Source of the DNA: Fibrobacter sp.
GTDB taxonomy: Bacteria > Fibrobacterota > Fibrobacteria > Fibrobacterales > Fibrobacteraceae
DNA: 34,007 bases
Assembly (NCBI RefSeq): GCF_017551775.1
Contig: NZ_JAFZKX010000049.1
Coordinates: 1-34,007, forward strand
Direction of reading: 5' to 3'
Under the pieces are notes generated by a model that did not search any database, was not told where the DNA came from, and saw only the letters and a list, made by a program, of their open reading frames with translations. A program made the translations under genes and the position numbers. Below are positions 13,812-22,026 of this stretch, piece after piece (position 1 is the first letter of the stretch; every line of letters begins with the position of its first letter).

Positions 13812-15092
13812 ATGGCACGCATCCAGACACTTGCGGGAGAATGGTTTGAACCGGACCTGCCGGGACGCCTCCTGAAGATTGCGGGCGATATCCGCGATGC
13901 GGGTGGCCGCGCCTTCTTGGTGGGCGGCTGGGTCCGCGACGCGCTTTTGGGAAAGTCTTGCCGCGATTACGATGTCGAAGTGTACGACATGGCGCAGGAC
14001 GCCCTGGTGCCCATCCTTTCGAAGTATGGCCGCACGAACCTGGTCGGGAAGGCTTTCGGCGTGATTCACCTCGCCATGAAGGGGCTTTCGCTCGACTTCT
14101 CGTTCCCGCGCACCGAAAGCAAGGTGGGCTACGGGCATCGCGGTTTCGTGGTGCATACCGACGAGAAGCTCAGTTTCAAGGAGGCGGCGCTCCGGCGCGA
14201 CTTCACCATCAACGCGATGGGCATGGAACTGCCGGAACTCACGCTGTGCGACCCTTATAACGGGATTGGCGACCTGAAGGAGCGCGTATTGCGCCACGTG
14301 GGTCCCGCCTTCGCGGAAGATTCCCTGCGCATATTGCGCGGGGTGCAGTTTGCGAGCCGCTTCGGGTGCACGCTCGCGCCCGAGACCGTTGAACTCTGCC
14401 GTACGCTCTCGCTTGATGACCTGAGTGTGGAACGCCTGTTCGAGGAATTCAAGAAGTGGCTCCTGAAGCCGGGCAAGCCTTCGCTCGGGCTCCGCGCCTT
14501 TTTGGACATTAAGCTCGACGGATACTTCCCCGAAATCCGCCCGTTCGAAGGTTCCTGGGAGACGCTCGGCGAAATCCTCGACAATATGGTGGAATTGCGG
14601 GATTGCAGCGGCCTTTCCGACAGCCAGAAAATGGATTTCGCTTTTGCCGCGCTTCTTGCGGGGAGTGCGGGAACGTCCCTCGATTTTCTCGGACGTATTA
14701 CCAATGAAACGCACCTGCTGAAGAATGTCCCGTTGCAGTTGCAGGCGCTCCGGCAGCTTGACGAAGGCATCGTAAACGACATTCCGGCGCTCCGCCGTCT
14801 GGCTGTAAAGCTGGATGGGCTCAGGCCGCTTTGCCTGCTGGTGCAGAGCATCCCGTGCCGTTTCTTCAAATCGCCTGATTTTGCGAAATGCTTGTGGAAA
14901 TCCGCCGGCGAATACAGCCTGCTCGAAGCCGCCCCGCAGCCCTACCTCACAGGCAAGATGCTCATGGACCTGGGCGTAAAGCCCGGCAGGCAGATGGGCG
15001 AAATCATCAAGCAGAGTTTTGAACTGCAGCTTGACGGCAAGATTGCTAGTGCTGAAGACGCAGTTGCTTGGGCGATGAGCTTTCAGCAGTGA
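13812..15092 (+). CDS. CCA tRNA nucleotidyltransferase / poly(A) polymerase family protein
   Basis: The 426-residue cytoplasmic protein is a class II nucleotidyltransferase. It has the GGWVRD motif (Gly38, Gly39, Arg42, Asp43) and the metal-binding carboxylates Asp52 and Asp54 (CRDYDVEVY). The RRDFTINAM nucleotide-recognition motif begins at Arg128, and the neck element EDSLRILRGVQFASRF is present. The C-terminal half is helical and divergent, as usual, with no HD domain seen. It most likely adds or repairs the 3' CCA end of tRNAs; poly(A) polymerase activity cannot be excluded from sequence alone. There is no obvious ribosome-binding site, but it lies 14 bases after the small lipoprotein gene and may be read by coupling. 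It is convergent with the glycosyltransferase gene. Confidence 0.9.
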   Translation: MARIQTLAGEWFEPDLPGRLLKIAGDIRDAGGRAFLVGGWVRDALLGKSCRDYDVEVYDMAQDALVPILSKYGRTNLVGKAFGVIHLAMKGLSLDFSFPRTESKVGYGHRGFVVHTDEKLSFKEAALRRDFTINAMGMELPELTLCDPYNGIGDLKERVLRHVGPAFAEDSLRILRGVQFASRFGCTLAPETVELCRTLSLDDLSVERLFEEFKKWLLKPGKPSLGLRAFLDIKLDGYFPEIRPFEGSWETLGEILDNMVELRDCSGLSDSQKMDFAFAALLAGSAGTSLDFLGRITNETHLLKNVPLQLQALRQLDEGIVNDIPALRRLAVKLDGLRPLCLLVQSIPCRFFKSPDFAKCLWKSAGEYSLLEAAPQPYLTGKMLMDLGVKPGRQMGEIIKQSFELQLDGKIASAEDAVAWAMSFQQ

Positions 15093-15272
15093 TTTTTTTG
15101 AACTTAGAGCTTAGATAAGTTCCTAGTTCTGAGTTACTAGGATTGCATTTACCGAGAAGATTCTTGATAAAAGCTATACTAGTAACTAGGAACTACTAAC
15201 TATTAACTGCCGCTATACAAAACTTGGCAACTTGTTGCCTAGTTGCTGTTATCCACTATGTGGAGAAGCGGC
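15093..15272. repeat. Intergenic heptad (CTNNNAA) inverted array, first copy
   Basis: Four direct heptads lie head to tail at 15179-15206: CTAGTAA, CTAGGAA, CTACTAA, CTATTAA, ending in CTGCCGC. Upstream, 15120-15140 holds three heptads of the same type on the opposite strand (read as CTAGTAA, CTCAGAA, CTAGGAA). The two arms can partly pair, 9 bp around AGTTACTAG being perfect. A second imperfect inverted repeat at 15221-15244 (GGCAAC-TT-GTTGCC core) lies near the end of the minus-strand gene and might help terminate it. No gene is seen in this stretch. Confidence 0.75.
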
Positions 15273-16376
15273 TCACTTCCAGCGGAACATTCCCGTAATG
15301 CCCGCGGGCACGGCGAACACTATCATCGGAATCTGGATGAGTTCTGTCGGCAAGAAGGCGAACATCTTGCGCTTGGAATGCAGTTTCCAGGACGCAATCA
15401 TCAGGAATACGAAATCCACGACGATTTTGGGCGCGATGCTGAAAACGCACCACTGCCACGGGAAGTCCAGGAAGGCGACGCACCACGGGCTTATGAACAT
15501 CCAGATGTAATACGTGTAGATGAGCGTGAGCAGCAAGACGTAGGCCTTGCTCTCGTAGTTCGTGCCGTTGCTGCTCCAGCGGGCGCGCTGGTTGAACAGC
15601 TGCTTCCACGTGTGTACCGGCGCGGTCTCTATTACGGCGTCCTTGTCCAGGTTGTAGCAGACCTTGGTGCCGGGAATCTTCATCATCTTGTGGATGAGCA
15701 TGTCGTCGTCGCCGCTCGAGAGGTTGATGAGGTCGCCAAATCCGCCCACCTTGAAGAACAGTTCCTTCTTGTAGGCGAGGCATGCGGCGCTCGCGACGAT
15801 CGGGTGTCCCCAGCTGAACCCGGCGGCTTCCATCGCGGTGTAGCCGAGGGTTTCGAGTTTCTGGTAAAGGTGCGGCATGGTGCGGCTGCCGTTGTTCTGC
15901 TTCGGCCCCTGCACGATGCATATCCCGTCCACGAACCGGCCCGCCATCGCGGTTATCCAGCTCTTGCGTGGGATACAGTCGGCGTCCATCGTCAAAAGCA
16001 CTTCGTTTTTCGCGATTTTGAACGCGCTTTCGAGGGCCCGCTTCTTGGGACTAGCGATTACGGGCAAATCGGGGGAGAGGCTGAGCACGCGGAACTTCGG
16101 GTGCGTCGCGGCGAATTTCTCGAGAATCTCGCGGGTGGAATCCGTGGAGCGGTCATCCACGCAGATGACTTCCCATTCGCCGGCGTAGTCCTGTTCGGCC
16201 AGCGCTTCGAGCGTGCGTTGCGCAAATTCCTCTTCGTTCCTCATTGGGACCACTACCGAGACGCTCGGGGTCGCTTTCGGCCCCTTGTAACGGTGCGTGC
16301 GGACAAGCCCTATTATGAAGAATAGGAACAGGAGCACGTAGAGTGCGGTGAGGCATGCGATGATAATACCGCCCAT
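15273..16376 (-). CDS. Membrane GT2 glycosyltransferase
   Basis: The 367-residue protein begins with a membrane helix (about 3-24) and a basic segment. A GT-A catalytic domain follows, with VSVVVPMRNEE, the CVDDRSTDST nucleotide-binding motif (Asp74/75), the metal-binding DAD (Asp131-Asp133), an SSGDDDML element (Asp223-225) and QRARW (263-267). Three or four hydrophobic segments lie between about 280 and 365. The Q-x-x-RW motif places it with processive or lipid/polysaccharide-type GT2 enzymes, so it probably transfers a sugar from a nucleotide sugar to a cell-envelope acceptor on the cytoplasmic side. Acceptor and sugar are unknown. No Shine-Dalgarno sequence is visible, and a TACATT hexamer lies 7 bases upstream of the ATG. 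Heptad arrays flank it on both sides, and no other sugar-assembly genes are adjacent except lpxA. Confidence 0.9.
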   Translation of the reverse strand: MGGIIIACLTALYVLLFLFFIIGLVRTHRYKGPKATPSVSVVVPMRNEEEFAQRTLEALAEQDYAGEWEVICVDDRSTDSTREILEKFAATHPKFRVLSLSPDLPVIASPKKRALESAFKIAKNEVLLTMDADCIPRKSWITAMAGRFVDGICIVQGPKQNNGSRTMPHLYQKLETLGYTAMEAAGFSWGHPIVASAACLAYKKELFFKVGGFGDLINLSSGDDDMLIHKMMKIPGTKVCYNLDKDAVIETAPVHTWKQLFNQRARWSSNGTNYESKAYVLLLTLIYTYYIWMFISPWCVAFLDFPWQWCVFSIAPKIVVDFVFLMIASWKLHSKRKMFAFLPTELIQIPMIVFAVPAGITGMFRWK

Positions 16377-16399
16377 GCGCGCAAATGTAGTAAAAAGAG

Positions 16400-16490
16400 T
16401 TCTTCGTTCTAAGTTCCCAGTTCCTAGAGTGAGCCTGCTTTTTTCTAAATTACCACTAGTAACTCGTAACTAGTAACTGGTAACTGCGCC
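16400..16490. repeat. Intergenic heptad (CTNNNAA) inverted array, second copy
   Basis: Four direct heptads at 16456-16483 (CTAGTAA, CTCGTAA, CTAGTAA, CTGGTAA, ending in CTGCGCC) face four minus-strand heptads at 16400-16427 (read as CTAGGAA, CTGGGAA, CTTAGAA, CGAAGAA), with a 28-base spacer. The layout copies the array at 15120-15206: opposite arm first, spacer, direct arm, then CTGC. Confidence 0.8.
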
Positions 16491-16498
16491 TTTGGCGC

Positions 16499-17275
16499 AT
16501 GCATATTATGATTCACCCGTCCGCATTTGTGAGCCCGCAAGCCAAAGTCCACGAAACAGCCTCTATTGGCCCGTGGTGCCTAGTGGACTGCGGTGCGGAG
16601 ATAGGGGAAAACGTGGTTCTCGAGTCCCGCGTGCACGTTTACGGCGGGGTCTCCGTCGGCGCGAACACCCATGTCTATGACGGGGCCATCCTCGGCGCTC
16701 CTCCGCAAGATTTGAAATATGCGGGTGAGCCGACACGCCTCAGCATTGGCGAAAACTGCACCATCCGCGAGTACTGTACGCTCAACCGCGGTACGGTCCA
16801 GGGGGGCGGCTGCACGCGCGTTGCAGACAAAGTATTGGTCATGGCTTACTCGCACATCGCACACGATTGCGACATCCGCGAAGGTGTCGTCATCGCGAAC
16901 GGCTGCCAGATTGGCGGGCACGTGCGAATCGGCGAATATGCGACCCTCGGGGGCGTTACCGGAATCCAGCAGCGTAACCAGGTGGGCGCCTATGCCTTCG
17001 TGGGCGGCACGCACAAGGTGGACCGCGACGTGCCCCCCTGCACCAAGGCGTACGGGAGCCCCATCCGCTTCGGCGGGCTCAACCTGCATGCGCTCCGCTT
17101 GCACCCGGACCTGTTCCCCGAAGAGCGTGTCGAGGCGCTTTCCCGCGCTTACCGGGAACTCTACCGCAGCGGCCGCCCCGTATCCGAGGTTGTCGAGGAA
17201 CTGAAAAAAGGCCCGGAACTCCTGTTCCAAGCCTTTTTCGACGAGCATTGGGGCGGCACTCTCGTTCGCCCGTAG
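16499..17275 (+). CDS. lpxA: LpxA: acyl-ACP--UDP-N-acetylglucosamine O-acyltransferase
   Basis: The 258-residue protein is a left-handed beta-helix acyltransferase with hexapeptide repeats from about 10 to 185 and a helical C-terminus. By hand alignment with E. coli LpxA (offset 3), the catalytic His125 is His122 (SHIAHDC) and His122 and His144 are His119 and His141. The position of His160 is Gln157 (GIQQRN instead of AVHQF). Gly at the position of E. coli Gly173, part of the chain-length ruler, is kept. The enzyme performs the first step of lipid A synthesis in the cytoplasm. M4 (16508) is an alternative start that matches E. coli better. It stands apart from the usual lpxD/fabZ/lpxB neighbours and has no clear ribosome-binding site. 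Confidence 0.9.
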   Translation: MHIMIHPSAFVSPQAKVHETASIGPWCLVDCGAEIGENVVLESRVHVYGGVSVGANTHVYDGAILGAPPQDLKYAGEPTRLSIGENCTIREYCTLNRGTVQGGGCTRVADKVLVMAYSHIAHDCDIREGVVIANGCQIGGHVRIGEYATLGGVTGIQQRNQVGAYAFVGGTHKVDRDVPPCTKAYGSPIRFGGLNLHALRLHPDLFPEERVEALSRAYRELYRSGRPVSEVVEELKKGPELLFQAFFDEHWGGTLVRP

Positions 17276-19458: not shown

Positions 19459-22026
19459 ATGCGTAAATTACCGTTACTCTTTACGACTTTGCTTTGCTCT
19501 TCCCTCGCTTTTGCGCAGGAAACCGAAGATGCGCTGGATGCTAGCGTCCCTGAGACCGAAGCGGTTGAAGAAGCCGCTCCTGCCGAGGAAGCTGTTGCCT
19601 CTGAAGAATCTGCTCCTGCTGAAGAAGCCGCTCCCGCCGAGGAAGCCGTTGCTTCTGAAGAATCTGCTCCTGCCGAAGAAGCCGCTCCGGTAGAGGAAGC
19701 CGCTGCCGAGGAACCGGCTGTCGAGGAAGCCGCTCCGGTTGAAGAAGCCGCGGCCGAACCGGCACCCGAGGAAGCCCCCAAGAAGGAATTCGCTTCGGCT
19801 GCACCTACGGCAGTACCTGCCGCCGTGGTCGACGCTCCGGCAACCAAGCCTGCCGAAGAACAGTTGAAGACCATCGAAGACAATATGGACAATATTGCCG
19901 AAAACATGGAATCCACGCTGATGGGCAAGGATGACGCCCCTCTCGCTGTTTCCGGTTTCATGGCGTTCCGTCTCAAGAACTTCCACTATTCCGAACCTTC
20001 CGAGTACTTTGCTAGCGATAAGGCTCGTACCTCTGTCGACGCTATGTTCAAGGCGAACATTGTCGCGATGCCGAACTCCTACATGACCCTCTGGACGAAC
20101 CTCACGTTCCCGTTCGACCTCTCGGGTTTCTTCTCTAACAACCTCGGTTCTCAGCCGACCAACGTGCCCACGTCTAACGAACGCGTGCTGTTCGACCACT
20201 CTACCGACTACTACTCCTCCACGATCGATGAAGAAATGAACTTCGGTATCGATATCCGTGCTGGCGTGTTCGGTGCCTATGTCACGGCGGGCGGCGTCAT
20301 CTGGGCGAACTCTTCTCCGCTCACCATGTGGGAGCGCGAAACCATGCCCCGCTTTGGTTGGGTGTACGAAACCTTCGAAGACGAAAAGACTGTTAGCACC
20401 TACTACAAGGAAAAGGTGTTCAAGCCGGTCAAGGAAGGCGGCCGTGCCTTCTGGACCAACCGCTCCTTCGGTGGCGTTTTCCTGAGTGTTTACCAGTTGC
20501 CGTTCGACTTGACCGCCCAGGCGATGGTGTCCCAGCCGGCTGACATGGACGTCGGTACTCGTGACGGTCTGCGCATGTACGGTGGCCAGCCGGGTGAACT
20601 CGAAATGTCCGGTGACTATGATCTCCGCGGCGCCGTCTACCATGGCCGCATTGCGAAGAACAAGATTGCCGAGAACCTGACAATCGGTGCCAACTACATG
20701 GGCGTCGTCTTTGACGAGGCTGTCGTGTACGAACCGGAATTCTACGGCCAGTACAATGCGTTGAGTGTTGATCCTTACATCATGAACACGCATGTGGCCT
20801 CCATCGACTTCAAGGGCAATGTCACCCCGAAGCTCTACCTCATGGCCGACGTGGCCTTGAGCTTGACGGATTCCCTCAAGTTCTACAAGGGTGAAGGTGC
20901 CAAGCATAACTCCGGCTACCAGGAAGACACTTACAAAACGAAATGGAACACTCCGCAGGTCGGTGTGTACGTGAAGGCCCAGAGCAAGTACCTCGAAGGC
21001 TGGCCGATGACTCTCGAAGCCATCTTCCTCCAGAAGGACTTCTACTCTCCGTTCTCCATGTCCAACCCCTCTCGCTTCCTTGCTTGGCGCAAGGATGAAT
21101 TCGCCCTCAACTCCGGTTCTATGCGCTATACCCCCAACATGGCGGGTCTTAACCTGAAGATCGAACCGGAATTCAACCGCGGACACCTCGATATCCAGTA
21201 CGGCTTGCACAGCCAGGTCGAAGAGGGTGACGACGTGTTGCTCTTCAACTACCGCTTGAACGGCCGCAACCTCTGGGAATCTTCGAACTCTTGGACCAAG
21301 CACAAGCCGCTCTTCTGGGCCGACTCGGGTAACGCTATTTACAACGGCTACGTGGAACGTGCCGGTGTGCTCACTCCGGGTGTCGGCGTGAAGATGACCC
21401 GCCAGCAGGGTGGTCTCCGCGGTGGTACGTGGGAAATGTGGGAAACCTTCGTCGCTTACGAAAATGCCCAGCAGATTCAGGACTCCGTTGTCCCGAGCCA
21501 CACCAAGTGGTCCAGCTACCTCTCCCTCGCGGGCGGCTATGATATCGGCCACTGGTTCGGTACCGACAGGAACATCGTGATGAGCGGTTATGCCTCTATT
21601 TCCGGTGTCTCCAAGACTATTGCCCCGATTGCTTACAGCGAATCTCAGAGTGACATGCTCTTGTGGAGCTTCTACGGTCAGCTTGAACCCGCCATCGCGG
21701 TGACGCCGACCTTCCACCTTGTGGGCATCCTCGGTCTCGAATCGTTCCGTTCCGAATACGGCTACATCATCGACTATGCGTCCAACAACATCGAAAAGTC
21801 CACTCCGAAGAAGCCGACGCATTACAACGATGTGAACACGATGCTGTACCGCAAGGCTCCTATCAATTACCTCGAAACGGCTCTCGGTCTCGGTTTCGAC
21901 TGGAACTTTGCCGACCGTGCCGGTATCCATGTCCGCTACAAGTGGGCTACACATTCCGACGAGACGGAGCCTGACAACGATTGGAAGGGCCATTACATCT
22001 ACGCCGAAACTAAAGTATGGTTCTAA
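19459..22026 (+). CDS. Outer-membrane beta-barrel protein with E/A/P-rich periplasmic segment
   Basis: AAGAGGT 5 bases before the ATG supports the start. The 855-residue product has a signal peptide (cleavage near AFA-QE, residue 19-20). A Glu/Ala/Pro-rich low-complexity region (about 30-110) includes an 18-residue unit repeated twice (37-54, 55-72), followed by a short predicted coiled coil (about 131-158). From about 165 the sequence alternates hydrophobic and polar residues like beta strands and ends in Phe, as outer-membrane barrels do. The element SSPLT (285-289) corresponds to YSPLT of the next two genes, so the three are likely distant paralogues. The E/A/P region could span the periplasm. 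Substrate, if it is a porin, is unknown. Confidence 0.82.
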   Translation: MRKLPLLFTTLLCSSLAFAQETEDALDASVPETEAVEEAAPAEEAVASEESAPAEEAAPAEEAVASEESAPAEEAAPVEEAAAEEPAVEEAAPVEEAAAEPAPEEAPKKEFASAAPTAVPAAVVDAPATKPAEEQLKTIEDNMDNIAENMESTLMGKDDAPLAVSGFMAFRLKNFHYSEPSEYFASDKARTSVDAMFKANIVAMPNSYMTLWTNLTFPFDLSGFFSNNLGSQPTNVPTSNERVLFDHSTDYYSSTIDEEMNFGIDIRAGVFGAYVTAGGVIWANSSPLTMWERETMPRFGWVYETFEDEKTVSTYYKEKVFKPVKEGGRAFWTNRSFGGVFLSVYQLPFDLTAQAMVSQPADMDVGTRDGLRMYGGQPGELEMSGDYDLRGAVYHGRIAKNKIAENLTIGANYMGVVFDEAVVYEPEFYGQYNALSVDPYIMNTHVASIDFKGNVTPKLYLMADVALSLTDSLKFYKGEGAKHNSGYQEDTYKTKWNTPQVGVYVKAQSKYLEGWPMTLEAIFLQKDFYSPFSMSNPSRFLAWRKDEFALNSGSMRYTPNMAGLNLKIEPEFNRGHLDIQYGLHSQVEEGDDVLLFNYRLNGRNLWESSNSWTKHKPLFWADSGNAIYNGYVERAGVLTPGVGVKMTRQQGGLRGGTWEMWETFVAYENAQQIQDSVVPSHTKWSSYLSLAGGYDIGHWFGTDRNIVMSGYASISGVSKTIAPIAYSESQSDMLLWSFYGQLEPAIAVTPTFHLVGILGLESFRSEYGYIIDYASNNIEKSTPKKPTHYNDVNTMLYRKAPINYLETALGLGFDWNFADRAGIHVRYKWATHSDETEPDNDWKGHYIYAETKVWF
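19567..19674 (+). repeat. Two tandem 54-bp coding repeats
   Basis: Each encodes the same 18-residue unit (EEAAPAEEAVASEESAPA). Silent differences between the copies show that they are not a very recent duplication. Further partial units follow to about 19780. Confidence 0.8.

Follow-up and report, generated by a model that had tools for sequence, protein, structure and literature searches.

Degenerate tandem heptads are familiar from cyanobacteria, both as STRR repeats, whose units are of the CCCCAGT type, and in the Nostoc tRNA-Leu intron, and we know of no back-to-back pairs around a core in either. The REP and BIME elements that go with RAYT transposases are dispersed, intergenic and modular, carry small stem-loops and form inverted pairs; to our knowledge none contains heptad arrays. 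The available part of PMC4692102 describes GGGNATC heptads in Xanthomonas and GGGGA(C/T)T heptads in Nostoc, with a preference for four units and with 70 and 75 inverted pairs, called convergent, in two Xanthomonas genomes, and links them to G-quadruplexes. The TAACTGA heptads of Beggiatoaceae, cyanobacteria and Bacteroidetes are, in the excerpt of PMC4679880, one fixed heptad in two to six copies, mostly in one orientation and just upstream of start codons. At the parS site of pSM19035 one ParB dimer sits on each 7-bp repeat, and fewer than four contiguous repeats do not suffice (PMC9499535, in the section available). Heptamers are over-represented in several bacteria, and we found no accepted reason for seven or for four units.

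The DNA analysed here is a stretch of 34,007 nt (the window) from contig 49 (NZ_JAFZKX010000049.1) of the rumen-type Fibrobacter sp. GCF_017551775.1, a genome of 3.2 Mb in 114 contigs. Among named genomes it stands closest to assemblies of Fibrobacter succinogenes (up to 99% identity in the glycosyltransferase). A first-pass annotation had pointed to two heptad arrays on either side of a glycosyltransferase gene, each with minus-strand heptads, a spacer of 28-38 bases and four plus-strand heptads ending in CTGC. Reading the sequence again confirms positions and layout in both elements (Table 1), the CTGC arising where both plus arms continue into GC, and the arrays stand far above chance, with six three-unit CTNNNAA runs in the window against none in 100 dinucleotide shuffles. 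At the orthologous locus of the relative G167 the minus arm of element 1 is identical and its core differs by one substitution.

Table 1. Genes and repeat features around the two heptad elements of the window.
Feature	Position	Strand	Basis or remark
Poly(A) polymerase / tRNA nucleotidyltransferase family gene	13812..15092	+	PF01743, 6.9e-22; convergent neighbour
Element 1, putative decayed outer heptads	15100..15117	-	sequence reading
Element 1, minus-strand arm, three good NNNAACT units	15118..15140	-	sequence reading
Element 1, core of 38 bases, palindromic class, around CGAGAAGATTCTTG	15141..15178	.	
Element 1, plus-strand arm, four units (AGT, AGG, ACT, ATT before AACT)	15179..15208	+	
GC stem GCCGC/GCGGC with long insert in loop	15209..15272	.	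also a dispersed repeat
Family-2 glycosyltransferase gene	15273..16376	-	PF00535, 2.2e-25
Putative -10-like box reading toward glycosyltransferase gene	16383..16397	-	sequence, common to relatives
Element 2, minus-strand arm, four units, one decayed	16398..16427	-	
Element 2, core of 28 bases	16428..16455	.	unchanged in G167
-10-like box reading toward LpxA-like gene, inside element 2 core	16439-16454		putative promoter
Element 2, plus-strand arm, four units (AGT, CGT, AGT, GGT before AACT)	16456..16485	+	
Outer mini stem-loop GCGCC(TTT)GGCGC	16486..16498	+	
LpxA-like acyltransferase gene	16499..17275	+	PF00132, 8.9e-24; PF13720, 9e-10; divergent from glycosyltransferase gene

Both arrays belong to a dispersed repeat family of the Fibrobacter succinogenes group that is modular and does not code for protein. 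The earlier suggestion of a dispersed repeat is borne out by the 30-base pattern CT(NNNAACT)x4, which matches the genome 22 times on the plus and 20 times on the minus strand, whereas the backward control matches neither strand, and many of the copies are common to near relatives. The first-pass annotation had named a lack of further copies and of conservation between strains as what would make the arrays chance; both are present. The looser pattern AACTNNNAACTNNNAACT gives 61 matches on each strand, against 1 and 1 for its backward control. Across the phylum, a four-unit match is present in 85 of 167 genomes; the backward control matches in some genomes too (G011, for example, with 13 and 21), probably because of other heptads there. 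Strong backward-control matches occur in G011, G012 and G015, species that may hold heptads with a TCAA-type core.

The anatomy of the repeat was read from 58 loci of the same genome, among the 100 listed of 122 AACTNNNAACTNNNAACT matches, and from loci of two relatives, an arm being defined as at least three exact units (81, 68 and 51 arms in the three genomes). A half-module comprises about four NNNAACT heptads, often closed off on the outside by a small hairpin (5-bp stem, three-base loop); as a rule two halves flank a core of 20-38 bp and point away from it. Arm length peaks sharply at four units (46/81, 33/68 and 24/51 arms). The inverted pairing noticed in the window is general: within 110 bases, 53/81, 46/68 and 31/50 arms have an opposite arm as inner neighbour and only 2, 0 and 0 have one as outer neighbour, while random 110-base windows of the same loci contain one in 47/1160, 47/1140 and 51/1000 cases. 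AGT is by far the commonest core-proximal unit, seen in 45 of 80 arms, so that arms look like diverged copies and not only like local expansions. Exact-unit edges are exactly 48 bases apart in 9 of 29 paired elements, and many cores with this spacing have a common palindromic consensus around CAAGAAGCTTCTTG.

Outer stem-loops accompany 22 of 90 arms (1.7 expected), and triloop hairpins with five-bp stems number 35 in heptad-bearing intergenic DNA, where shuffles give 3.1. Loops of the form C(GNA)G, which make very stable DNA hairpins, have AACT directly 5' on the same strand in 17 of 25 cases. Because all intergenic DNA sampled from Fibrobacterota has an excess of general GC stem-loops, only the triloop and the AACT-strand bias beside arms are specific. 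A GC stem with a long loop insert, like that at 15209-15272, adjoins heptad arms also at loci L018, L151, L031 and L032; at L151 its letters are flipped (GCGGC...GCCGC) and the pairing is kept.

Judged against the available part of PMC4692102, the Fibrobacter arrays resemble the Xanthomonas and Nostoc heptads in having a 7-bp unit with fixed and variable positions, in being dispersed and intergenic, in occurring most commonly as four units, often in inverted pairs, and in varying in length among relatives. They thus show the features by which bacterial intergenic heptameric repeats are recognised there, namely degenerate 7-bp tandem units, dispersal, four-unit preference and inverted pairs. 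Unlike those repeats, they are arranged back to back with a core of fixed length class in between, have outer C(GNA)G stem-loops and come in many heptad sequences within one genus. Unlike GGGNATC, the Fibrobacter units (AGT, AGG, CAG or CGG before AACT) also lack a G-tract, so that a G-quadruplex can neither explain the four units nor cover both groups. With the TAACTGA heptads the arrays have in common an intergenic position and 7-nt indels between near strains (PMC4679880, in the excerpt available), and TAACTGA itself is the case of NNNAACT in which NNN is GAT. GAT occurs once among the Fibrobacter AACT units counted, so the arrays do not consist of the exact TAACTGA heptad; they differ further in their variable NNN, paired arms, use of both orientations and lack of gene-context bias.

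The pSM19035 parS site is comparable in its contiguous 7-bp units, each taken by one dimer and at least four of them required for full activity (PMC9499535, in the section available), and differs as a plasmid centromere with a known protein and a WATCACW unit that is absent from the Fibrobacter unit list, the Fibrobacter copies being chromosomal and dispersed. The CCCCAGT-type units of the STRR are likewise missing from that list. The proposed likeness to cyanobacterial heptads stands as one of kind, going by the available parts of PMC4692102 and PMC4679880, while neither the sequence nor the inverted-pair arrangement is the same. The literature searched, which lay mostly outside subscription journals, held nothing on heptads of Fibrobacter, and we regard the arrays as a variant, not described before as far as we found, of already known heptad repeats, those of Xanthomonas, Nostoc and Beggiatoaceae being the closest in print. 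It is doubtful whether Fibrobacter, Xanthomonas and Nostoc represent one phenomenon, in which a common process that measures 7 bp with little care for sequence would place about four heptads in intergenic inverted pairs in unrelated bacteria, neither G-quadruplexes nor translation being the cause. The Fibrobacter case distinguishes among the causes put forward so far (polymerase slippage geometry, G-quadruplex, binding protein): the length of seven stays constant although arrays differ in sequence, there is no G-tract, and single units are gained and lost among near relatives. The causes of heptad periodicity thereby become testable in a group with cultured species.

As the best explanation of the whole we tentatively favour a modular intergenic repeat that acts, through its AACT letters, as a multi-site binding platform. 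Several loci hold composite copies, and arrays gain and lose whole 7-bp units, which fits slipped-strand replication. In 29 hand-paired loci aligned with G167 (relative L031), the indels in or near arrays measured 7 bp (six), 14 bp (two), 42 bp (one) and 2 bp (one), that is, multiples of 7 bp in nine of ten. Automatic alignment of the same genomes gave such multiples in 10/16 indels near arrays against 4/90 elsewhere; in the pairs with G168 the figures are 6/32 and 3/16 against 4/89 and 5/89, the excess fading with distance and alignment noise.

Base changes in the units add a modest signal, AACT letters being altered less often than NNN letters in each of the three genome pairs. In symmetric counts of all arms, AACT changed at 12/760 positions and NNN at 16/408 in the first genome pair (p 0.016), at 6/529 and 18/288 in the second (p 9e-5), and at 1/576 and 9/309 in the third (p 5e-4), other intergenic DNA differing by 5.7-8.4% between the compared genomes. 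Restricting the counts to arms whose locus another arm recovers, which corrects for the way loci were found, weakens the contrast: 10/474 against 12/252 (p 0.07), 4/312 against 8/167 (p 0.03) and 1/408 against 4/216 (p 0.05), a borderline outcome in three pairs that have lineages in common. Nine arrays without AACT changed at 5/144 conserved and 11/108 variable positions; that count is biased toward conservation, its arms having been delimited in a single genome and its loci located through the pattern itself, and we place no weight on it. Changed NNN units differ by a single base in 29 of 35 cases, which indicates point mutation and not unit exchange.

On the binding-platform reading, AACT at 7-bp spacing would probably be kept by selection, and a candidate DNA-binding protein with a 7-bp pitch would sit on each unit, about four in a row being needed. 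The ribbon-helix-helix ParB of pSM19035 on its own heptads could serve as a model for such a binder, and the effect, speculatively, may be local DNA organisation or insulation between neighbouring genes and not control of the glycosyltransferase. A profile of the Omega repressor (PF07764) matched in 0 of 12 genomes, where control profiles gave no matches either. The many different heptad sequences in the genus would mean that several proteins are needed. The protein-binding array proposed by the first-pass annotation is compatible with the modest AACT constraint suggested by the alignments, and no binding protein was found.

The main rival, which we consider quite possible, is that the arrays are functionless slippage DNA, neutral or selfish: polymerase slippage would favour 7-bp units, arrays would arise from many seeds and persist in the free DNA between stop codons and promoters, and AACT would be uniform only because unit exchange cannot alter letters common to all units. 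The idea of a polymerase origin is quoted in the available part of PMC4692102, and the 7-bp indels between near relatives agree with it. Also in its favour is a sequence-blind scan for four identical columns over four units at periods 4 to 13, in which period seven dominates. Intergenic DNA of the glycosyltransferase loci (44 kb) held 43 distinct period-7 arrays against 0-3 for each other period, and that of five further genomes, sampled at contig starts (54 kb), held 20 against 0-6, their coding DNA having 8 in 449 kb; G099 had no period-7 array in its sampled DNA. Period 14, as the double of seven, was also in excess (15 and 10), and averaged autocorrelation gave z 12.9 at lag 7 and z 15.0 at lag 21, with signals at lags 1 and 2 and weaker ones at others. 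AACT is missing from the conserved columns of 69 of the 88 period-7 arrays, and 37 of 56 relatives have no array at the glycosyltransferase-LpxA site, both as slippage from many seeds would have it.

Slippage without function accounts best for the many sequences and worst for the four-unit mode and the layout, as unaided slippage should give unit numbers that tail off smoothly, without a peak at four, and no set back-to-back arrangement. An inverted partner was present for 26 of the 88 period-7 arrays (8.6% in a swapped control), including 16 of the 69 without AACT. Nor does it fit that AACT still changes less where point changes, and not unit exchange, dominate at NNN. In coding DNA of L204-L213, L219-L223 and L234-L243 the scan also returned period-12 and period-15 arrays, 60 and 82 distinct ones in 449 kb.

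We think it unlikely that arms and core are the ends of a REP-like or MITE-like non-autonomous transposon served by an enzyme in trans. Such an element would explain two composite copies of about 178 bp in the genome (L019/L175) that are 87% identical, the palindromic consensus of the 38-base core, the presence of filled and empty sites among relatives, and a 42-bp difference that corresponds to one half-module (stem-loop plus arm), present in the genome of the window (G000) and absent in G167 (L171/L191). No clean target duplication was seen in the few pairs read by eye (L153/L179, L171/L191 and L149/L201), and the Y1 transposase (PF01797) is present in only 5 of 12 genomes and in none of the array-rich G014, G019 and G102. 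As the transposase does not track the arrays, we rejected an identity with REP/RAYT elements.

At the gap between the glycosyltransferase and LpxA-like genes, a period-7 array lies within 230 bases before the gene in 19 of the 56 relatives' loci, with AACT triples in nine, and L032, L037, L041, L048, L054 and L076 have heptads of quite different sequence there. Loci read by eye show the two -10-like boxes nearly abutting at an empty site; at a filled one, one arm lies between the boxes and the other between the LpxA-like gene and its box. Because the LpxA-like box lies between the arms, a filled site would lengthen that gene's leader relative to an empty one (comparison loci L033, L085 and L086). 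The idea that the arrays are a recombination target around the glycosyltransferase finds no echo in these loci, where the relatives' sites are empty or hold other repeats. No inverted glycosyltransferase gene was seen among the loci read by eye, which were not counted, and we set aside inversion or switching of the gene, of which those loci give no sign.

That arms and core fold into a long transcript hairpin acting as a terminator or RNA-processing element is highly improbable, for although the folding of element 1 exceeds that of shuffled sequence on either strand (z -4.2 and -5.2) and the core of L161, with an A-run, a hairpin and a T-run, resembles an intrinsic terminator in both directions, element 2 shows no such excess (z -0.3 and 0.2), eight arrays are located between divergent genes, and cores pair no better than with their right halves swapped (854 of 2000 permutations reach the observed pairing), so that the core palindrome reflects shared sequence and not covariation. 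Arrays with AACT occur in both orientations and in all three gene contexts, with 25 codirectional, 13 convergent and 8 divergent gaps against 16, 7 and 6 for other gaps. This amounts to no preference, and a terminator role was rejected for want of gene-context bias.

Elsewhere in the window, positions 19566-19776 of a long gene (19459-22026) are tandemly repetitive, with units of 54, 48 and 18 bases, and the repeat unit seemingly encodes an acidic stretch rich in alanine, glutamate and proline.
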